DNA of 33,801 bases. It comes from Polyangia bacterium (lineage in GTDB: Bacteria > Myxococcota_A > Polyangia > Polyangiales > Sandaracinaceae). Both the position numbers and the translations under genes were made by a program. The notes under the pieces were generated by a model, which searched no databases, was not told where the DNA came from, and saw only the letters and a list, made by a program, of their open reading frames with translations. The stretch spans positions 1 to 33,801 of the forward strand of contig JAUHXR010000063.1 in the NCBI GenBank assembly GCA_030426845.1, read 5' to 3'. Below are positions 3,896 through 29,104 of the stretch, piece after piece; within the stretch, counting starts at the first letter, position 1, and each line of letters starts with the position of its first letter.

Positions 3896-3984
3896 CAGCC
3901 CTGGACTTCCCCGCACGCAGAGCCATGTATGGACGCGCAACGGGAACGACGCCCAACACCTTGGGATCAAAGGGAAAAGCGAGA

Positions 3985-4872
3985 ATGAAGAGCCTCCGCT
4001 TCGGGATCGAGATCGAGACGGTCGGACAGCGCCGGCGCCGGGTCGCCGAGGCGATTCAGGAGGTCGTCGGCGGGGCGGTCGTCCACGCGGGCGCCCCGGC
4101 CTGCTACGACCCCTGGGACGTCATCGCGGAGGACGGGCGCCGCTGGCGCGTGATGGCCGACTCGAGCCTGAGCGCCGGCTTCGGGCGCCAGGCCGAGGTC
4201 GTCAGCCCGATCCTCCGCTACGAGGACATCGGCACCCTGCAGCGGATCGTCCGCGCGGTCCGGCGGGCGGGGGCGAGCGTCGACCCGACTTGCGGGATCC
4301 ACGTCCACGTCGACGGCGCGCGCTTCGACGCGAAGGCGGCCTGCAACCTCATCAAGCTCGTCAACAAGCAGGAGCGGCTGATCGAGCACGCGCTCGGCAT
4401 CGACCCGCTGCGGCGCGCCAGCTACGCGCGCGGGGTCAACCAGGACTTCCTCCAGCGCATCGAGCGGGAGCGCCCGCGCGACCTCGACGCGCTCAACCGC
4501 GCCTGGTACGGCCGCCTCAACCGCGCTCCGGTCCACTACGACCAGACGCGCTACCGCGGGGTGAACCTCCACAACCTCTGGTTCCGAGGCACGGTCGAGT
4601 ACCGCTACTTCGACAGCACGCTCCACGCGGGCAAGGTCAAGGCGTACGTCCAGTTCTGCCTCGCCCTGAGCGCGAAGGCGATCCACGCGAAGCGGGCGAT
4701 CAGCGCGCCGCGCCCCTTCGACCCCGCGACCAGCAAGTACGACTTCCGGTGCTTCCTCCTGCGCCTCGGCCTGATCGGGCCGGAGTTCAAGACCGCGCGG
4801 CTGCACCTGCTCTCGCGCCTCGGCGGCTCGGCCGCGTGGAAGGGCGAGCGGCGCGACGCCCCCGCGAGCTGA
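3985..4872 (+). CDS. Amidoligase-family ATP-dependent carboxylate-amine ligase
   Basis: 295 residues from ATG 3985. The N-terminal motif FGIEIE (6-11), ADSSLS (58-63), EVVSP (71-75), GIHVHVD (104-110), [10 protein letters not shown] (189-198) and [16 protein letters not shown] (203-218) are the ordered conserved blocks of the amidoligase family (glutamine-synthetase-like fold), which joins a carboxylate to an amine through ATP. Acidic residues in the first block and the HxH pair are expected to bind metal and ATP. An in-frame ATG 20 codons upstream exists, but homologous proteins begin close to FGIEIE. The next gene, 21 bases downstream, encodes two gamma-glutamylcyclotransferase domains, a pairing described for amidoligase neighbourhoods in phages and bacteria. 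The product is presumably a peptide or amine conjugate; its identity is unknown. Confidence 0.9.
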
Positions 4873-4893
4873 CCACCCCTTGGAGAAACGACC

Positions 4894-5715
4894 ATGGAGA
4901 CCGTCACCTACTTCGCCTTCGGCTCGAACCTCGACGCGGCGCAGATGCGCCGACGCTGCCCCACCGCCGCGGCGGTCGGCCCGGCGCGGCTCACGGGCTG
5001 GGCCCTCGCGTTCGCCGGACACAGCGCCACCTGGGGCGGCGGGGTGGCCACGGTCGTGCGCGCGCCCGGCGCGTCCGTCTCGGGCCTGCTCTGGCGGCTG
5101 CCGCGCGACGAGCTCAGCCGGCTCGACGCGTACGAGGGCTACCCGCGCGCGTACGAGCGCCGGCGGCTCCTGGTGAGCGCTCTGTCCGGTCGGCGTCGCG
5201 CCTACGTGTACCTCAAGCCCGACGCGCTCCTCAGCGCGCCCGCCGCCGCGTACGTCGATCAGATCCACGACGCGTACATCGAGCACGGGTTCGATCGCGG
5301 CCCGCTGCTCGGCGCGGTCCTGCGCGCGGTCCGGGCCCGGGCCACCGTGTTCGTCTACGGGACCCTCCGCGAGGGGGAGGCGAACCATCACCTCCTCGGC
5401 GGGCGGAGGCCGACCGCGCGGGCGCGCACCGAGGCGCGCTTCCGCCTGGCCCACCTGGGGGGCTTCCCGGCGATGGTCCGCGGGGGTGGCGCGCGCGTCG
5501 TCGGCGAGACCTACGAGGTCGACGGCCGGACGCTCGCGCGGCTCGACCAGCTCGAGGGTCACCCGCGGCTCTACCGGCGCCAGCGGATCCGCCTCGAGGG
5601 CGGGGGCGACGCGCTCGCCTACTTGCTTCCCCCCGCCATGGCGGCAGGGTTCCCGACCATCCGGTCCGGGGACTGGACGGACCGTGAGGAGGATCGACGA
5701 TGCGCATCCGCTTGA
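4894..5715 (+). CDS. Tandem gamma-glutamylcyclotransferase (GGCT/AIG2-like) protein
   Basis: 273 residues, with TTGGAG upstream of the ATG. There are two complete GGCT-like domains. Domain 1 begins YFAFGSNLDAAQM (6-18) and carries LDAYEGYP (78-84 region) with E81. Domain 2 begins VFVYGTLREG (152-161) and carries LDQLEGHP with E221. The FxYGS/T-L nucleotide-like loop and the glutamate after LDxx are the binding loop and the catalytic acid in this family, and both copies keep both. The family cyclises and releases gamma-glutamyl groups from amines as pyroglutamate. Next to an amidoligase it would trim, edit or recycle the ligated product. The two domains differ (FGSNL against YGTL), so they may act on different substrates. 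Confidence 0.9.
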   Translation: METVTYFAFGSNLDAAQMRRRCPTAAAVGPARLTGWALAFAGHSATWGGGVATVVRAPGASVSGLLWRLPRDELSRLDAYEGYPRAYERRRLLVSALSGRRRAYVYLKPDALLSAPAAAYVDQIHDAYIEHGFDRGPLLGAVLRAVRARATVFVYGTLREGEANHHLLGGRRPTARARTEARFRLAHLGGFPAMVRGGGARVVGETYEVDGRTLARLDQLEGHPRLYRRQRIRLEGGGDALAYLLPPAMAAGFPTIRSGDWTDREEDRRCASA

Positions 5716-11827: not shown

Positions 11828-13369
11828 ATGAGCCGCCGGGGGAGGGCGCGCCCGGAGGCGAAGGTGGTCCGCTGCGCGATCTACACGCGCAAGAGCGTCG
11901 CGCGCGGGCTCGAGCAGGAGTTCAACTCGCTCGACGCGCAGCGCGAGGCCTGCGCGCAGTACATCGCGAGCCAGCGGGCGGCGGGCTGGCGGGCGCTCCC
12001 CGAGAGCTACGACGACGGCGGCTTCACCGGGGCCACGCTCGAGCGGCCCGCGTTCCAGCGGCTGCTCGCCGACGTCGACGCCGGCGCGGTGGACGTCGTG
12101 GTCGTGTACAAGGTCGACCGCCTCAGCCGCTCGCTCCTCGACTTCGCCCGGGTGATGGAGCGGCTCGACAAGGCCGGCGCCTCATTCGTCGCGGTCACCC
12201 AGAACTTCAGCACCGCGGACGCGATCGGGCGGCTCACGCTGAACCTCCTGATGTCGTTCGCGGAGTTCGAGCGCGAGATGATCGGCGAGCGGACGCGCGA
12301 CAAGATCGCGGCGGCGCGCCGCCGAGGCCAGTGGACGGGCGGCGCGGCCCCGCTGGGGTACGAGATCGTCGACAAGAAGCTCGTCGCACTCGAGGCCGAG
12401 GCCGCGCTCGTGCGCGAGGTGTTCGAGCTCTACGTCGCCCACCGGTCCGCGCTGGTCGTCGCGCGCCGCCTGAACGACTCGGGGCGCCGGACCAGGCAGC
12501 GGGTGTCCTCCTCCGGCCGGCTCAAGCCGGGCCGCGAGTGGACGAAGCAGACCGTCCTCTACACGCTCCGGAACCCGCTGTACGCGGGCTGGATCCCGTA
12601 CGACGACGAGCTCTACGAGGGTCAGCACGAGGCGATCGTCGACCGCGCGGTCTTCGAGCAGGTCCGCGCGCTCCTCGCGGGCCACCGGCGCCCCGCCGAG
12701 GCGCCGCGCAACCCCGACTACGTCCTGCGGGGCCTGCTGCGCTGCGGCGGGTGCGGCGCGGCGATGACGCCCGGCTCCACCCGCAAGGGGGCGCGCCAGT
12801 ACCGCTACTACCGCTGCGTCACCCGGGACAAGCGAGGTCGGGGCGCCTGCCCGCGGGGGCCCGTCTCCGCCGAGCAGGTGGAGGCCGCCCTGGTCGACCA
12901 GCTGCGGCGCGCGGCCGCGGAGTCGCCTGACCTCCCCCGCGCGCTCGAGCGCCGCCTGCGCGAGCGCGTCGACGGAGAGCGCGCGCGCCTGGAGGCCGAG
13001 CGCGCGCAGCTCCCGGCGCGGCTCGCGCAGCTCAGGGCGGAGCGCGCGCGCGTCGCGGACGCGCTGGTGCACGCCGGGCCGCGCGGCCACGCCGCCCTCG
13101 AGGGGCGCCTCGCCGAGCTCGCGGAGGCCACCGCGGCGCAGGAGGACCGCCACGCCCACGTCGCGCGCGCGCTCGCCGCGCTCCGGGGACGGGAGATCGA
13201 GGCGCGCTGGGTCGCCGACGCGCTCGCCGACTTCGACCAGCTGTGGGCGCTCATGACAGCCGAGAACCAAGGTCGGCTGCTGCGCGCGATCATCCGCGAC
13301 GCCACGCTGACGCCGGACGGCGAGCTCGTCATGGCGATCGGGGCGCTCGTGGACGAGGAGGCCGCGTGA
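11828..13369 (+). CDS. Large serine recombinase (resolvase/invertase family integrase)
   Basis: 513 residues, GAGGGG upstream of the ATG. The catalytic domain (about 13-160) begins CAIYTRKS with nucleophile Ser23, then YDDGGFTG (61-68), VYKVDRLSRS (93-102) and EFEREMIGERTRD (146-158), holding the conserved arginines. The recombinase domain follows (GGAAPLGYEI, about 171-280), then a zinc ribbon with C306, C309, C330 and C341, and a long coiled coil to about 450. This is the layout of phage integrases that cut and join att sites by a covalent serine linkage. It lies in the middle of the window, not at an end, within an operon of small proteins. Family assignment is secure; whether it is the integrase of this element is inferred. 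Confidence 0.95.
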   Translation: MSRRGRARPEAKVVRCAIYTRKSVARGLEQEFNSLDAQREACAQYIASQRAAGWRALPESYDDGGFTGATLERPAFQRLLADVDAGAVDVVVVYKVDRLSRSLLDFARVMERLDKAGASFVAVTQNFSTADAIGRLTLNLLMSFAEFEREMIGERTRDKIAAARRRGQWTGGAAPLGYEIVDKKLVALEAEAALVREVFELYVAHRSALVVARRLNDSGRRTRQRVSSSGRLKPGREWTKQTVLYTLRNPLYAGWIPYDDELYEGQHEAIVDRAVFEQVRALLAGHRRPAEAPRNPDYVLRGLLRCGGCGAAMTPGSTRKGARQYRYYRCVTRDKRGRGACPRGPVSAEQVEAALVDQLRRAAAESPDLPRALERRLRERVDGERARLEAERAQLPARLAQLRAERARVADALVHAGPRGHAALEGRLAELAEATAAQEDRHAHVARALAALRGREIEARWVADALADFDQLWALMTAENQGRLLRAIIRDATLTPDGELVMAIGALVDEEAA

Positions 13370-13737
13370 GCGCCGGCGGCGCGGTCACGATCGTGCGCGC
13401 GCGCCTCGGCCCAGCGCCCGACCGCGCGCCCGCTGCGCCGGTGAGGCGCCCGGCGCGGGTCGCGCAGATGCTCGCGCTCGCCCACCGCATCGAGGCGCGC
13501 ATCGAGCGCGGCGAGCTCCGCGACCGCGCCCACGCCGCGGAGGTCTTCGCGCTGACGCGCGCCCGCGTCACCCAGCTCTGCGCCCTCACGCTGCTGGCGC
13601 CCGAGATCCAGGAGCAGCTCCTCTTCCTCGAGGCGGTGGACGGCGTCGAGCCGCTGAGCGAGCGCGCGCTCCGCCCGGTCGCGCGCGCCCTGTGCTGGGA
13701 GGAGCAGCGCAGGCGCTGGGGCGCGCGGAAGGCGTGA
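13366..13737 (+). CDS. Helix-turn-helix protein following the recombinase
   Basis: 123 residues from GTG 13366, overlapping the recombinase stop as GTGA. Residues about 40-85 contain a helix-turn-helix of ParB/KorB type (HAAEVFALTRARVTQLCALT) followed by LLAPEIQEQLLFLE. Short proteins of this kind commonly follow serine recombinases in phages. It likely binds DNA and may help or control recombination; the role is not known. Confidence 0.75.
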   Translation: MSAGGAVTIVRARLGPAPDRAPAAPVRRPARVAQMLALAHRIEARIERGELRDRAHAAEVFALTRARVTQLCALTLLAPEIQEQLLFLEAVDGVEPLSERALRPVARALCWEEQRRRWGARKA

Positions 13738-13788
13738 TCGCCCTCGCTCGCCTGTCCCCGTCGGCGCCGCGCGCCGCTTTGGCCCGAG

Positions 13789-13926
13789 GTGGACCCCGCC
13801 CTCCCGAGCGCGCCCGCACCGCCCGCGCCCGCCGACGACCCGCTGGACCTGCTCGCGGAGGCGCTCCTCGCGCTGCTCGTGGAGACGCGCGCGCCGGCGC
13901 CTCGGGCGAGGCCCCCGGCGCGATGA
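13789..13926 (+). CDS. Very short 45-residue protein
   Basis: GTG 13789 to TGA 13926, the last four bases being the ATGA overlap with the nuclease gene. It is Pro/Ala-rich with a central acidic helix (DDPLDLLAEALLALLVETR). The ribosome site is poor (CCGAG), so the main support is the overlap and the helix. No function assigned. Confidence 0.45.
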   Translation: MDPALPSAPAPPAPADDPLDLLAEALLALLVETRAPAPRARPPAR

Positions 13927-15245
13927 GCTTCGACTGCCCGACGTACGAGCCCGTCGCGGGCGGCCGCCGGTGCCGCGCCTACCTCTCGAACGGCGGCTGC
14001 GCCCGCGACGACCAGCTGATGTGCGTCGAGTGGCTCCGCGCCAACCCGCGGCTCTCGGGTCGGCCCGCGGCTCCGGCGACCCCCGCTCGGCTGAGCTACA
14101 CGCGCATCAGCCGCTGGGAGACGTGCCCGCGCAGCTACCGGCTCCGGTACATGGACGGGCGCGAGGCGCCGGGCGGCGAGGCCGCACAGCTGGGCAAGGC
14201 GGTGCACCGCGCGATCGAGCTCCTCGAGCTCCAGCACGTCCGCGCCGGTCGGCGCGCCACCATCGGGCGGGAGGCGGCGGTCACGGCGTGGCGCGAGGCG
14301 TCCTCAGAGCACGACCTCGTCGGCGCCGCCGCCTTCGCCGAGGGCCTCGAGCTCGTCCAGCGCTTTGTCGACGCGCAGGGAGCGCTGGACCCCGCGTCCG
14401 TGCTCGCCGTCGAGCGCCGGTTCGAGATCGAGGTCGGCGGGCGCGCGGTCGTCGGGGTGATCGATCGCGCCGACCGCCTCGACGAGGAGACGGTGGAGAT
14501 CATCGACTTCAAGACGAACCGGCTGCTGTTCACCCGGGACGACCTCGCGACGAACCTGCAGCTCTCGCTCTACGCGCTCGCGGCGCGGCGCCTCTGGCCC
14601 TGGGCGAAGGGCGTGGTGCTGACGTTCTGGATGCTCCGCCACGACGTGAAGCAGCGCACCACGCGGAGCGCCGAGGACCTCGAGGCCGCGGCCGCCTGCG
14701 TCCAGACCGTCGCGGAGCGGCTCGCGGCGGAGACGGAGTACGCGCCGCGGCCCAACCCGCTCTGCGCGTGCTGCGACTACCGGCGGGGCTGCCCCGCCTA
14801 CGCGGAGATGCTCCAGGGCAAGCACGAGCACGCGGCCGAAGACCTGGAGGACCTGGAGCAGGTGGCGCGGGAGCGCGAGGAGGTCGCCGCGCTCGCGAAG
14901 GCGCTCTACCGGCGCAAGGACGAGCTGGACAAGGCGCTCCGCGCCCGGCTCGAGCGGGAAGGCCCGCTCGTGCTCGCCGGCGCGCGGTACAGCACCTTCC
15001 GCGTCACCTCGCGGGACTACCCGCTCGAGCGCACGGTCGAGGCGCTCGCGCGCGCGACCGGGCGGCCGGCCCCCGAGCTCCGCGAGGAGCTCGCCACGGT
15101 GAGCAACGGCGCGCTCAAGGCGCTCCTGCGGCGGCTGGGCAAGGCGGGCTGGAGCCGCGCCCGGGTGAAGCTGCTCGAGGCGGAGCTCGACGCGCACGCG
15201 ACGTTGACGCACACCGACCGCCTCTGGTCGAAGGCGGTCGCGTGA
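13923..15245 (+). CDS. PD-(D/E)XK nuclease, RecB/Cas4-like, with iron-sulphur cysteines
   Basis: 440 residues from ATG 13923. Nuclease motifs in order: GKAVH (H95), GVID (D181), IIDFKT (D195, K197) and NLQLSLYALA (Q213, Y217). The cysteines C68, C281, C284 and C290 give the C-x(n)-CxxCxxxxxC spacing of the 4Fe-4S cluster of AddB, Cas4 and related nucleases. The N-terminus carries four further cysteines (5, 17, 26, 34), probably a separate zinc-binding knuckle. A long helical C-terminal region (about 300-440) may contact DNA or a partner. It should resect or trim DNA ends during phage recombination, beside the RuvC-like gene with which it overlaps by four bases. Confidence 0.9.
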   Translation: MSFDCPTYEPVAGGRRCRAYLSNGGCARDDQLMCVEWLRANPRLSGRPAAPATPARLSYTRISRWETCPRSYRLRYMDGREAPGGEAAQLGKAVHRAIELLELQHVRAGRRATIGREAAVTAWREASSEHDLVGAAAFAEGLELVQRFVDAQGALDPASVLAVERRFEIEVGGRAVVGVIDRADRLDEETVEIIDFKTNRLLFTRDDLATNLQLSLYALAARRLWPWAKGVVLTFWMLRHDVKQRTTRSAEDLEAAAACVQTVAERLAAETEYAPRPNPLCACCDYRRGCPAYAEMLQGKHEHAAEDLEDLEQVAREREEVAALAKALYRRKDELDKALRARLEREGPLVLAGARYSTFRVTSRDYPLERTVEALARATGRPAPELREELATVSNGALKALLRRLGKAGWSRARVKLLEAELDAHATLTHTDRLWSKAVA

Positions 15246-15913: not shown

Positions 15914-15961
15914 ATGACGACGACCCGCCCCGCCCTCCCCGCCCGCGCGGACCGCCGATGA
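15914..15961 (+). CDS. 15-codon leader peptide overlapping the ParB-like start
   Basis: ATG 15914 follows a strong AGGAG, while the ParB-like ATG at 15958 has no purine-rich site in front of it. The mini-frame MTTTRPALPARADRR ends in the ATGA shared with that start. It may serve only to deliver ribosomes to the next gene by translational coupling. As a peptide it has no recognised function. Confidence 0.4.
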   Translation: MTTTRPALPARADRR

Positions 15962-16965
15962 GGATCGGCGACTACGCCGTCCACGACCTCGCCGGGCTCC
16001 TCCCGCTCATGGACGGCGAGCCGTTCGACGAGCTGGTGGCCGACGTCCGGGAGCACGGCCTCCGCGAGCCCATCGTGCTGCTGCCCGCGATCCACCGCGA
16101 CCCCGAGATGATCCTCGACGGCCGCAACCGCCTGCGCGCGTGCCTCGAGGCCGACCGGCGGCCGAGGTTCGTCTACTACCGGGGCTCCACCGACCTCGCG
16201 AGCCTCATCGAGTTCGTCCGGTCGCACAACCTGCTGCGCCGGCACCTCTCGCCGACGCAGATCGCCAACGCGGGGCTCATGTACGACGACTGGTACAGGG
16301 CGGCGGCGCGCTCGCGCATGCGCGACGGCGGCGCGGCGGGCGGGCGCTCAAGCCAGAAGGGGAGCGCAGATCTGCGCTCCCCTCGCGCCGGCAAGTCCAG
16401 CGCCGCGCTGGCCCAGGACCTCGGCGTCTCCGCGCGCACGGTCGAGAGCGTGCGGCGCGCGAGGAGGCTCGGCACCCCTGAGGTGGTCGCCGCGATGGCG
16501 GGGGGAGAGCTGTCCGCCGACACCGCCAGCGACCTCGTGCGCCTCGCGCCCGACGCGCAGGACCACGCCCTCGAGGAGGCGCGCCGCACGGGCCAGAGCG
16601 TGCGCTCGCTCGTCCGCGAGCGGCTCGCCGCGCCCGCGGGCGACACACCCTCAGACGTGCGGTCGGTGCAGGCCGCGTTCGATCGCTTCGCGGAGCTGGC
16701 CGCCGCCGCCGCCGCGGCGCTCGCCTCCGCGCGAGACGCCGCGGTGTCTGCGCGCGTAGCGGATCCCTCGATCGAGGACTCGATCCGCGCCTTCCAGACG
16801 CTGTCGGAGGGGCTGCTCCAGCGCCACCGGCCCGAGCGCCGCTGCGACCGGTGCGCGGGCGAGGGCTGCGCCCGCTGCGGCCACACCGGGTGGCTCGCGA
16901 AGGTCGCGCAGGAGGACGCGGGCCAGCGCCTCCGCCTGGTCGGCGCGTTGGGCGACGCGGAGTAG
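15958..16965 (+). CDS. ParB/Spo0J-like DNA-binding protein with a C-terminal zinc knuckle
   Basis: 335 residues. The ParB nuclease-like N-domain holds DELVADVREHGLREPIVL (24-41 region) and MILDGRNRLRAC (51-62), the conserved DGRNR box, which binds nucleotide in ParB. A linker (about 118-147) leads to a helix-turn-helix (SSAALAQDLGVSARTVESVR, 147-166). The C-terminus has CDRCAGEGCARCGHTG, a four-cysteine zinc knuckle. It could partition the element or act as a regulator or replication factor; no ParA partner is seen in the window. The linker is encoded by a perfect 26-bp palindrome. Confidence 0.82.
   Translation: MRIGDYAVHDLAGLLPLMDGEPFDELVADVREHGLREPIVLLPAIHRDPEMILDGRNRLRACLEADRRPRFVYYRGSTDLASLIEFVRSHNLLRRHLSPTQIANAGLMYDDWYRAAARSRMRDGGAAGGRSSQKGSADLRSPRAGKSSAALAQDLGVSARTVESVRRARRLGTPEVVAAMAGGELSADTASDLVRLAPDAQDHALEEARRTGQSVRSLVRERLAAPAGDTPSDVRSVQAAFDRFAELAAAAAAALASARDAAVSARVADPSIEDSIRAFQTLSEGLLQRHRPERRCDRCAGEGCARCGHTGWLAKVAQEDAGQRLRLVGALGDAE
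16358..16383. repeat. Perfect 26-bp palindrome within the ParB-like gene
   Basis: The half-site AGGGGAGCGCAGA is followed at once by its exact complement TCTGCGCTCCCCT with no spacer. It lies between the DNA codons of the ParB nucleotide domain and the helix-turn-helix. ParB-type proteins bind palindromes (parS), so a site for the protein encoded here is a natural guess, but this sequence does not match chromosomal parS and the guess is untested. Confidence 0.9.
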
Positions 16966-16971
16966 GCCTCC

Positions 16972-18504
16972 TTGCCCGCCCCGGCCCAGCCCCCCGCCGC
17001 GGCCGTGCGCCTCCGGCCGTATCAGCGCGCGGCGGTGGAGGGCGTGCGCGCCGCCGCGCGCGCCGGCGCGCGGCGCTGCCTGCTCGTCGCTCCGACGGGC
17101 AGCGGCAAGACGACCGTCGCGTCCGAGCTCATCCGGCTCGCGGTGGCGCGCGGGCGCCGCGCCCTGTTCGTCGCCCACCGCCGCGAGCTCATCGCCCAGG
17201 CCTACCAGCGCCTGCTCGACTTCGGGCTGCCCGCCTCGAGCGTCGGCGTCATCATGGCCAACGACCCGCGGCGCCGGCCGGGCGCCCACGTCCAGGTCGC
17301 CTCCATCGACACGCTGCGCGCGCGCGCCAAGCCGCGCGCGGAGCTCGTGATCGTCGACGAGTGCCACCGCGCGCTCGCCCGCTCGTACCGCGACCTCCAG
17401 GAGCACTACGCGCGCGCGGTCCACCTGGGCCTGACGGCCACGCCCTACCGCGCCGACGGCCGCGGCCTCGGCGACGCCTACGACGACCTGGTCGTCGTCA
17501 CCTCACCGCGCGCCCTCATCGCCGAGGGCTACCTCGTCGAGCCGCGCGTGTTCACCGTGCCGCCCTCGGCCCTCCCCGATCTGTCCGCGGTGCGCACCCG
17601 AGGCGGCGACTACGACAAGCGCGCGCTCGAGGACGCCGTCGATCACCGCGCCCTCGTCGGCAACCTCGTCGAGCACTGGCGCCGCCACGCCGAGGGCGTG
17701 CGCACGGTCGTCTTCGCGACCTCGGTCGCTCACAGCCGGCACATCGACGCCCGCTTCCGCGAGGCCGGCGTGGCGTCCGAGCACCTCGACGGCGCCACGC
17801 CCACCCACGAGCGCGACGCGATCCTCGCCCGCCTCGACGCGGGCGCCACCCGCGTCGTGTGCTCCGTCGGCACGCTGACCGAGGGCTGGGATCAGCCGTC
17901 GGTGAAGTGCGCCATCCTCGCGCGGCCGACCAAGTCGACGGGCCTGTACCTCCAGATGGCGGGCCGCATCCTCCGCCCATGGCGCGATCAGCCCGCGATC
18001 ATCCTCGACCACGCCGGCTGCGTCATGGAGCACGGGCTGCCCCAGCAGGACCGCGAGCACTCGCTCGAGGGCCCAAAGAAGGCGCGACGCCTGGGCGGCG
18101 GCGAGCCGCCCGCGAAGGCGTGCCCCGAGTGCTTCGCCATCGTGGCCCTCTCGGTCCGCGAGTGCCCCGCGTGCGGCGCGTCGCTCTCCGCGCCGCGCGA
18201 CGACGTGGAGGAGACCCCCGACGAGCTGGTCGAGGTCACCCTCGACGACGTGCAGCGCCTCGAGTGGGATCGGCTCCAGGCGCTGGGTGCGCTCCGCGGC
18301 TACCAGCCCGGCTGGGCCTCGCGTCGATTCAGAGAGAGGTTCGGCGGCACGCCGTCCGCTGCGCTGAGGGGATGGGTCACCCCCGCGGCCTCAACCGCAG
18401 AGCAACAGCGTCGGGTCTTCGACGCGCTCCTTGAGCAGGAGCCGAGCGCCGCGTGGGCGGCGGCGCGATTCAGAGCGGAGACAGGACTCAACGCCCCTGG
18501 GTGA
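16972..18504 (+). CDS. SF2 DEAD/DEAH-type helicase with zinc ribbon
   Basis: 510 residues from a TTG at 16972, with GGAGTAGG just upstream. Walker A APTGSGKTT (40-48), DECH box VDECHRA (128-134), GLTATPYR, and motif VI QMAGRILR (about 328-335) are intact, so an ATP-driven strand separation or DNA translocation is expected. A zinc ribbon CPECFAIVALSVRECPAC (384-401) follows, then a poorly conserved tail. It probably unwinds DNA during phage replication or branch migration with the RuvC-like protein. The final part of the gene is slightly lower in GC, running into the lower-GC insert downstream. Confidence 0.93.
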   Translation: MPAPAQPPAAAVRLRPYQRAAVEGVRAAARAGARRCLLVAPTGSGKTTVASELIRLAVARGRRALFVAHRRELIAQAYQRLLDFGLPASSVGVIMANDPRRRPGAHVQVASIDTLRARAKPRAELVIVDECHRALARSYRDLQEHYARAVHLGLTATPYRADGRGLGDAYDDLVVVTSPRALIAEGYLVEPRVFTVPPSALPDLSAVRTRGGDYDKRALEDAVDHRALVGNLVEHWRRHAEGVRTVVFATSVAHSRHIDARFREAGVASEHLDGATPTHERDAILARLDAGATRVVCSVGTLTEGWDQPSVKCAILARPTKSTGLYLQMAGRILRPWRDQPAIILDHAGCVMEHGLPQQDREHSLEGPKKARRLGGGEPPAKACPECFAIVALSVRECPACGASLSAPRDDVEETPDELVEVTLDDVQRLEWDRLQALGALRGYQPGWASRRFRERFGGTPSAALRGWVTPAASTAEQQRRVFDALLEQEPSAAWAAARFRAETGLNAPG

Positions 18505-25674: not shown

Positions 25675-27303
25675 TTGCTCGCGGTCGTCAAGCGGACCGA
25701 GGCCGAGCTGCTCGCGTACTTCGGCGCGGCGTCGGCGTTCGCCACGGGCGCGCTGCGCTACGACGGCGAGCCGCTCGCGCTCGAGTCCTACCAGCGGGCG
25801 TTCCTCGACGACCGCTCCACCTTCCGCTGGATCGTGAAGGCGCGGCAGGTCGGCTTCTCGTTCCTCTTCGCGATCGAGTGCCTCATCCGCTGCCACCTGG
25901 AGCCGAACTTCACCGCGATCTGCGTCTCGTACAACCACGCCGACGCGGTCGAGAAGGTCCGGGTCGCGCGCCAGCTCTACGAGGAGCTGCCCGCGCCGTA
26001 CCGCAAGCGGCTCGTCACCGACACGCGCACCGAGCTCGAGTTCGAGACGAACAGCGGCGCGCGCCGCGGGCGCTCGCGCATCGTGTCCGTTCCGAGCAAG
26101 CCCCCGCGCGGCAAGCACGGCACCGTCTACCTCGACGAGCTCGCGCACTACCAGGACGCGCGCAAGGTCTACGCGGGCACCACCGCGGCGATCGCGCGCG
26201 CGAAGGGCCAGCTCACCGCGGCGTCGACGCCGCTGGGCCGCCGCGGGCTGTTCTGGGAGGTCTGCGCCGAGGAGCTGCGCGCGTACCCCGGGCACGCTCG
26301 ACAGGCCGTGCCGTGGTGGGTCTGCACGTTCTTCTGCGTGGACGTCGGGCGCGCGGTCGTCGAGGCGCCGCTCATGGCCACCGAAGAGCGCGTCGAGCGC
26401 TTCGGGACCGAGGCGCTGCGCCACCAGCTCGAGTCGCTCGACCTCCTCGAGTTCCAGCAGGAGTTCGAGCTGAGCTTCGTCGCGGAGCGCCTCTCGTACT
26501 TCCCGTACGACCTGATCCTCGGCTGCACCGTCGGCGAGCTCGAGCTCGCCGAGGACTGGAGCCAGGTCCCCGTCCCCACCGGTCGCCTCGTCGCCGGCTA
26601 CGACGTCGGCCGGCGCGCGCACCGCAGCGCCCTCGCGCTGTTCGAGGAGCGGCCCGGGCCGCGCTTCGTGTGCCGGGCGCTCAAGCTGTACGACGACGTC
26701 CCGTTCGAGGAGCAGAAGGCGGAGCTCCGCGGGATGCTCGAGGCGCTCCCGATCGCGCGCTTCTCGATCGACGGCAACGGCATCGGCATGAACCTCGCGG
26801 AGGACCTCGGCCGCGAGTTCCCCCAGGTCGTCACCGAGCCGTCGAGCGGGCCCGCGAAGGAGCGCTGGGCGACGGACCTCAAGATCACCCTGCAGCGCAG
26901 GGCGGTCGAGCTCCCGCGCGAGCGCGGCCTGGTCGCGGAGATCCACTCGGTCGAGCGCCGCGTGAGCTCGAGCGGGCGCGTCTCGTTCGACTCGCCCGCG
27001 ACCTCGAAGGGGCACGCCGACCGGTTCTGGGCGATCGCGATGGCCTGTCAGAAGGAGCGGCAGGCGGAGGGCGGCGAGCTGCCCACCGTCCACGCGCGCG
27101 TCGTCGGCGGCGAGCGCGCGAGCTTCGAGCGCAGCCTCGACCGGCTGATCGGCTGGTCGCAGGGCGCGACGGAGGCGACCGCAGGTGAGGCCGAAGCGCC
27201 GGCGTCTCCCCGCGCGGGGCCGAAGCGGACCGCGGCGCGCCTCCCCCCCGCCGGCGCGGTGCGGCGAGGTCGACCCAAGGGCAGAAGCGAGAGGAGGGCG
27301 TGA
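25675..27303 (+). CDS. Phage terminase large subunit (TerL)
   Basis: 542 residues from TTG 25675, placed with no gap after the terS stop. ATPase: a degenerate Walker A KARQVGFS (55-62), Walker B TVYLDELAHY (150-159, D154 E155) and coupling motif AASTPLGRRG (182-191). Nuclease: VAGYDVGRRA (D310), FSIDGNGIG (D366) and KGHADRFWAI (D449), the three acidic metal ligands of the RNase-H-like domain. The enzyme translocates DNA into the prohead and cuts it. A Pro/Arg-rich tail follows from about residue 490. The nonclassical P-loop, with Gln-Val in place of GxxG, is common in terminases of this group. The gene is followed by a small frame overlapping by one base. Confidence 0.93.
   Translation: MLAVVKRTEAELLAYFGAASAFATGALRYDGEPLALESYQRAFLDDRSTFRWIVKARQVGFSFLFAIECLIRCHLEPNFTAICVSYNHADAVEKVRVARQLYEELPAPYRKRLVTDTRTELEFETNSGARRGRSRIVSVPSKPPRGKHGTVYLDELAHYQDARKVYAGTTAAIARAKGQLTAASTPLGRRGLFWEVCAEELRAYPGHARQAVPWWVCTFFCVDVGRAVVEAPLMATEERVERFGTEALRHQLESLDLLEFQQEFELSFVAERLSYFPYDLILGCTVGELELAEDWSQVPVPTGRLVAGYDVGRRAHRSALALFEERPGPRFVCRALKLYDDVPFEEQKAELRGMLEALPIARFSIDGNGIGMNLAEDLGREFPQVVTEPSSGPAKERWATDLKITLQRRAVELPRERGLVAEIHSVERRVSSSGRVSFDSPATSKGHADRFWAIAMACQKERQAEGGELPTVHARVVGGERASFERSLDRLIGWSQGATEATAGEAEAPASPRAGPKRTAARLPPAGAVRRGRPKGRSERRA

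Positions 27304-27512: not shown

Positions 27513-29104
<1,592 letters not shown>

Follow-up and report, generated by a model that had tools for sequence, protein, structure and literature searches.

In the Thermus thermophilus HB27 megaplasmid, ParBm binds a 14-bp palindrome, parSm, that is situated inside parBm itself, as demonstrated by EMSA, and the parBm gene alone gives rise to foci in E. coli (PMC4409726). The locus described here resembles this system in that a palindrome within a ParB coding sequence is the target, in our case inferred, of the encoded ParB. However, parSm is short (14 bp), has a GC-rich core, belongs to a true parAB operon with a ParA and is a single case for which co-variation has not been described, whereas the present family consists of orphan prophage ParB proteins whose palindromes reach 26 bp, have an AATT or GATC core and occur family-wide. 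Bacillus subtilis spo0J also carries a parS site within its own coding sequence, but the chromosome holds several near-identical 16-bp sites of this kind for a conserved ParB, and the one in spo0J does not evolve with each individual protein. In ParB and Noc, residues of the helix-turn-helix (HTH) set the bases bound in a short palindrome, and swaps of a few residues switch the specificity (PMC7383237), although the parS and NBS sites are dispersed over the chromosome and, unlike those of the present family, are unlinked to the helix codons. KorB of plasmid RK2, a ParB-fold repressor with clamp activity (PMC11790492), is a structural match of our 335-residue model and shares its ParB fold, but has many operator sites on its plasmid rather than a single intragenic one; to our knowledge, no case is known in which the sole KorB operator lies inside korB. 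Lambda O, a phage DNA-binding protein, has its binding sites within the linker-coding part of the O gene, as an internal origin; these, however, are iterons with an AT-rich origin, and O is a replication initiator of unrelated fold.

The window (the whole stretch of DNA analysed, 33,801 nucleotides) is a prophage, with genes for a large serine recombinase, a PD-(D/E)XK exonuclease, a helicase, a terminase and a portal protein. The features relevant to the analysis are as follows.

11828-13369: large serine recombinase.
13692-15245: PD-(D/E)XK exonuclease.
Upstream neighbour of the ParB-like gene: open reading frame that looks RuvC-like by eye only; a family search gave no match.
15958-16965, + strand: gene for an orphan ParB-fold DNA-binding protein of 335 residues (Spo0J 1vz0 profile, PHROG and Foldseek matches).
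15958-16293, + strand: ParB-type N-domain with the motifs DGRNR and NLLRRHL (invariant columns; pLDDT about 82-98 per 10-residue block).
16294-16395, + strand: linker containing the palindrome (codons of residues 134-142; pLDDT 49-70 in the blocks covering residues 121-150 and below 50 at 138-142).
16358-16383, no strand: perfect 26-bp palindrome, inferred to be the cognate site that the encoded protein binds.
16396-16422, + strand: first helix of the HTH, residues 147-155 (AlphaFold2 model).
16432-16470, + strand: recognition helix, residues 159-171 (AlphaFold2 model), with A159, R160, E163 and S164 as specificity residues by co-variation.
16972-18504, + strand, downstream of the ParB-like gene: ResIII/DEAD helicase (Pfam ResIII, E 1e-28; PHROG DNA helicase, E 3e-98).
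25675-27303: terminase.
About 27521-29104: portal protein.

The 335-residue protein matches the Spo0J 1vz0 profile (E 5e-8) and the PHROG 'ParB-like partition protein' (E 3e-13), and a Foldseek search with its AlphaFold2 model (mean pLDDT 80) returns Spo0J as the best hit (E 3e-8), followed by ParB, Noc and KorB. Its scores fall short of the curated cut-offs for TIGR00180 and PF02195, and the protein is best described as a divergent member of the ParB fold, for which the profile and Foldseek matches satisfy the criterion of a ParB-type N-domain. Within this domain, DGRNR and NLLRRHL are the putative equivalents of the ParB nucleotide-binding boxes, and the residues DGRNR and N..RRH are invariant across 56 divergent proteins; sequence is reported not to predict which nucleotide is bound (PMC12704722). 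The residues encoded by the palindrome are predicted by the model to fall in a disordered linker between the N-domain and the HTH. A ParA-binding motif, [LFI]G[KR]G[LFI] as defined in PMC12704722, is absent from the 335-residue sequence, and the window open reading frames that were scanned yielded no ParA, the immediate neighbours being the RuvC-like-looking frame and the helicase. On both grounds, the suggestion in the initial annotation that the palindrome might serve partition proper is unsupported.

Several further features of the region were noted. By eye, a 15-codon open reading frame can be read at window positions 15914-15961, and the overlap of its TGA with the ATG of the ParB-like gene (ATGA) suggests translational coupling. 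The C-terminus of the ParB-like protein (window 16843-16884) carries a zinc-finger-like CDRCAGEGCARCGHTGW motif, where many relatives have a methyltransferase instead. Elsewhere in the prophage region, an amidoligase gene (PF12224) adjoins a gamma-glutamyl cyclotransferase-like GGACT gene (PF06094) at window 3925-5715.

The palindrome itself, AGGGGAGCGCAGATCTGCGCTCCCCT, is perfect over 26 bp, has no spacer and is translated as K-G-S-A-D-L-R-S-P (K134-P142). It is the longest perfect palindrome in the window, the runners-up measuring 22 and 20 bp. Base composition predicts 0.006 palindromes of this length per window, and only 1 of 200 first-order Markov sequences contained one at least as long. 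Because the locally rare codons GCA (0.02), GAT (0.09) and CCT (0.07) are used, a perfect 26-bp palindrome has a probability of only ~1e-6 once the peptide and local codon frequencies are taken as given. The claims of the initial annotation that a perfect 26-bp palindrome lies in a ParB-like gene, and that it is unlikely by chance, both held. Its proposed check for other copies in the host returned none: within the 9.4-Mb genome there is no second copy of AGGGGAGCGCAGATCTGCGCTCCCCT, the best other sites differ from its central 20 bp by 3 mismatches, and the possibility that AGGGGAGCGCAGATCTGCGCTCCCCT is one of a set of dispersed host copies was rejected accordingly. The terminase gene contains a perfect 22-bp palindrome of its own, TCGGCGAGCTCGAGCTCGCCGA (window 26531-26552), which is GC-rich and possibly due to chance.

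Single-sequence searches of genome and viral contigs found no relatives of the gene, but alignment-based scans of GTDB genomes and IMG/VR did, yielding 203 sequences that form 131 clusters at 75% identity. Palindromes at the same place were first seen in distant relatives from the same phylum (L008, AGCGCAGATCTGCGCT; L006, CGGCAAATTTGCCG; L011, GTCGGCAAATTTGCCGAC, the last in a different reading phase), and homologues of 25-40% identity often possess one in the corresponding part of the linker, its length reaching 26 bp. An inverted repeat scoring at least 9 is present in the linker in 64 of the 131 clusters, compared with 1 of 131 and 0 of 129 for stretches of equal length upstream and downstream, respectively, in the same open reading frames. 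Across 2.16 Mb of flanking sequence, 36 perfect palindromes of at least 22 bp lie in a ParB-like linker as against 5 elsewhere, one of which lies in another ParB linker missed by the filter; shuffled sequence contained no palindromes of at least 22 bp. About half of the clusters, including Pseudomonas plasmid and Streptomyces members, lack a strong linker palindrome.

What is conserved is not the peptide. Although SANL or SADL occupies the place of the palindrome in several homologues, as would be expected if a protein motif, GSA(N/D)LRSP, were conserved and the palindrome were a by-product of codon choice, the peptides beneath the linker palindromes vary (SANL, SADL, AQICA, GKFA, PIGG, SIDA, ISTP), the arm sequences differ and all three reading phases are used, which argues that the encoded peptide is not the object of conservation. 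The codon-choice explanation is all but excluded: AQICA, GKFA, PIGG and SIDA in other phases are still encoded by palindromes, the low probability given the peptide speaks against it, and the linker is a low-confidence part of the model. A peptide-driven origin is thus refuted by the phase changes among homologues. The initial annotation had held that its reading would fall if homologous genes lacked the palindrome while keeping the protein sequence; this is not what is observed, as the palindrome is kept while the peptide changes.

Three groups of linkers or loci depart from the common pattern. Plasmids of Pseudomonas and Azotobacter (L405-L422), whose ParB-like gene has no linker palindrome, carry several dispersed GCAAATTTGC sites, most of which extend to CGCAAATTTGCG, far above a reversed-pattern control; in three of these plasmids one GCAAATTTGC site lies ~1.3 kb upstream of the ParB-like gene. 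Linker palindromes longer than 26 bp were observed in L275 and L357 (38 bp, AATTGGAAGGTTTGCCAAATTTGGCAAACCTTCCAATT, and 32 bp, AATCGCAGGTGGCAAATTTGCCACCTGCGATT, respectively). The linker of a Kitasatospora homologue (L132) holds a long imperfect inverted repeat with 28-nt arms and a 3-nt loop, unlike the AATT-centred palindromes.

The extent of the element was estimated from a symmetry profile of the 64 palindromes with an intact centre, in which positions 1-7, counted outwards from the centre, are inflated by the selection threshold. Arm symmetry is 0.80, 0.86, 0.80 and 0.94 at positions 8-11 and 0.67 and 0.56 at positions 12-13, and falls to the background value of 0.2 at position 14, which defines an element of 22-26 bp. 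The consensus core is GCAAATTTGC, with variants containing CAATTG, GAATTC or GATC. In 100 loci (0.69 Mb), the locus's own core recurs only twice (L168 and L260, with 1 mismatch each), equal to a scrambled symmetric control; from this level of recurrence, and in the absence of binding data, it is inferred that the protein generally has one strong nearby site, inside its own gene.

Strong evidence on what the palindrome is for comes from a correspondence between its bases and the residues of the HTH encoded immediately after it. This HTH follows the pattern L.V[SG]-x1-x2-x3-V-x4-x5-A, in which x1, x2, x4 and x5 of the window protein are A159, R160, E163 and S164. Mutual information between palindrome positions and residue columns, evaluated against shuffles, links position 3 to x5 (z 13), positions 4 and 5 to x2 (z 11 and 12), position 6 to x4 (z 15) and position 7 to x1 (z 8), the overall range for positions 3-7 with these four residues being z 7-15. 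The top columns are unchanged when the whole DNA-binding-domain alignment is used, and position 8 is additionally associated (z about 5) with a residue at the beginning of the first helix, where Q accompanies T in 33 of 37 cases. Shared ancestry does not account for these values, since N-domain columns average about 0 and reach z 4.3 at most. Together with the predicted helices, and again without binding data, this co-variation meets the criterion of a central HTH that reads a palindrome.

The pairings amount to a code. Arginine at x5 goes with C at position 3 (CAATTG) in 16 of 16 cases and arginine at x2 with C at position 4 in 52 of 52, while x4 and position 6 pair as R-G (16/17), A-T (12/12), E-C (11/12) and Q-C (6/7). 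When mapped on a tree of N-domain sequences alone, the states 'x5 = R' and 'position 3 = C' undergo 14 changes each, always in concert, so that by this tree the CAATTG/arginine pairing appears to have arisen through about 14 independent co-switches. When relatives with at least 60% N-domain identity are left out, the code predicts position 3 with an accuracy of 0.92 (0.71 for the majority base) and position 6 with an accuracy of 0.81 (0.47 for the majority base), and is barely better than the majority base at positions 4, 5 and 7. For the window protein, it gives A, C, G and C at positions 3-6, which are the bases observed; the G at position 7 is not predicted. The host's second, different ParB-like gene (L006; contig C531, 25931-26620) carries a separate palindrome, CGGCAAATTTGCCG, in the equivalent position; its helix, SERSVRHA, accompanies AAACGGC, and all five positions agree with the tallies.

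Proteins with nearly the same HTH (L229, L232 and L245) retain the bases at positions 3-5(7), while their outer arms differ yet remain symmetric. The occurrence of different palindromes behind near-identical HTHs was considered as evidence against an operator, an objection that was overturned when the positions held in common proved to be the ones assigned to the helix residues held in common. Positions 10-13 are symmetric without any residue having been identified that would account for them, which, with the differing outer arms, still counts against the assignment.

Two explanations that do not invoke the encoded protein can be judged against these data. Template switching, as a mutational process, or a mobile palindromic element might leave functionless palindromes, and the palindrome does differ wholesale between close relatives, in which linker and palindrome are swapped together. 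Such processes do not, however, predict a fixed place combined with rarity elsewhere in the same phages, or base-residue co-variation with ~14 independent co-switches, and as the sole explanation they are very improbable; it remains possible that they help the outer arms to stay symmetric. Alternatively, the palindrome could act as an RNA hairpin in the messenger, as a pause, an RNase III site or a translational control element, in keeping with the perfect arms of variable sequence and the unpaired A-rich loops of some members. This, too, is regarded as very unlikely, as internal arm mismatches comprise 12 A.C/C.A against only 2 G.T/T.G, so that wobble pairs on the sense strand are not favoured, and a hairpin does not predict co-variation of its bases with HTH residues.

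The observations are best explained if the ParB-like protein binds, as its cognate DNA site, the palindrome within its own gene. The symmetry of the palindrome, its fixed place without conservation of peptide or base, its near-uniqueness in the flanking sequence and the residue-base code are shown by computation; physical binding and its use are inferred. The identification is considered very likely on the strength of the co-variation and of the EMSA-tested Thermus precedent (PMC4409726), no binding data being available here, and the initial annotation's view, in which the encoded protein binds here, is to that extent strongly supported. In the proposed mechanism, a dimer would read both half-sites with its recognition helices, S164 contacting position 3 from the centre, R160 positions 4-5, E163 position 6 and A159 position 7. 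Only in the linker would the gene be free to adopt any codons, and the palindrome lies 48 bp upstream of the recognition-helix codons, a closeness that may mean that recombination rarely parts the two; given a free linker so close to the helix codons, specificity and target may be expected to evolve and recombine as one unit.

As to use, two roles are likeliest, alone or together: negative autoregulation, in which the bound protein would stop its own gene or operon from being transcribed, and a function as the single parS-like loading site of the element, at which an NTP-dependent ParB clamp would load. These two are not separated by the present evidence and both may hold, so that the autoregulatory role offered by the initial annotation remains undecided against clamp loading, while its overall reading was essentially right.

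A stronger form of the loading hypothesis holds that an NTP-dependent clamp spreads from the palindrome and tags the DNA for a fused methyltransferase, a neighbouring helicase or condensation, with autoregulation as a by-product. In its favour are the ParB fold with its invariant nucleotide-box residues, the presence of practically one site per locus, as with parS, and the downstream DNA methyltransferase motifs (DPPW or PPY) in 41 of 82 palindrome-bearing clusters. Against it stand the missing ParA-binding motif, the lack of a ParA among the window open reading frames scanned, and the fact that KilA-N and Rha proteins, which are not ParB clamps, are encoded by genes arranged alike. The last point means that a clamp cannot be the general reason for the arrangement, and on balance this hypothesis is slightly disfavoured.

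The KilA-N and Rha cases came to light in an exact-pattern scan of IMG/VR for AGCGCARATYTGCGCT, which returned 47 stretches, mostly in unrelated genes and, by our own estimate, at about the number expected by chance. Phage genes of both families have a palindrome at one place in each family. In Rha (L423-L502), the intragenic palindrome lies at about +136-139 nt, counted from where the matched region starts; its position 5 pairs with residue 30 (D-G 18/18, N-T 16/16, H-C 9/10), the base changing 18 times and the residue 22 times on a tree computed without either, its position 7 pairs with residue 29 (K-G 13/13, D-C 12/12) and its position 4 co-varies with residue 33. In KilA-N (L503-L582 and L075), the palindromes lie at about +142-207 nt and have the cores GGAATTCC, GCAAATTTGC or CTCATATGAG; position 7 pairs with residue 35 (R-G 17/18) and position 5 co-varies with residues 38 and 41. 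The co-variation in these two families should be taken as a strong lead and not as an established result, the sets being smaller and more closely related than the ParB-like set. Autoregulation through blocked transcription would fit all three families that have the arrangement.

Single ParB genes with an internal site were already known; what is new is that a helix-site code extends across a whole family and that two unrelated phage families, KilA-N and Rha, show the same pattern. No report of family-wide intragenic sites was found in the literature searched (open-licence PMC papers only), and the ParB-fold survey that names orphan phage ParB proteins (PMC12704722) contains neither 'palindrom' nor 'intragenic' in its text. 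On a bolder reading, which we consider likely, the unrelated orphan ParB-like, KilA-N and Rha families share a design rule, whereby each gene carries within its coding sequence the palindromic target of its product, near the codons of the recognition helix. If this is true, specificity and site would constitute an inseparable cassette that is self-regulated, or self-addressed, wherever phage recombination lands it.

Each gene in effect records the target of its own product, so that sequence alone supplies both members of a protein-DNA specificity pair for hundreds of uncharacterised phage proteins. The family thereby provides a natural data set for the HTH recognition code, in which binding and specificity swaps are directly testable, as well as a concrete handle on the many orphan phage ParB-fold proteins of unknown function (PMC12704722), and it suggests a general strategy by which mobile elements avoid separating a regulator from its operator.
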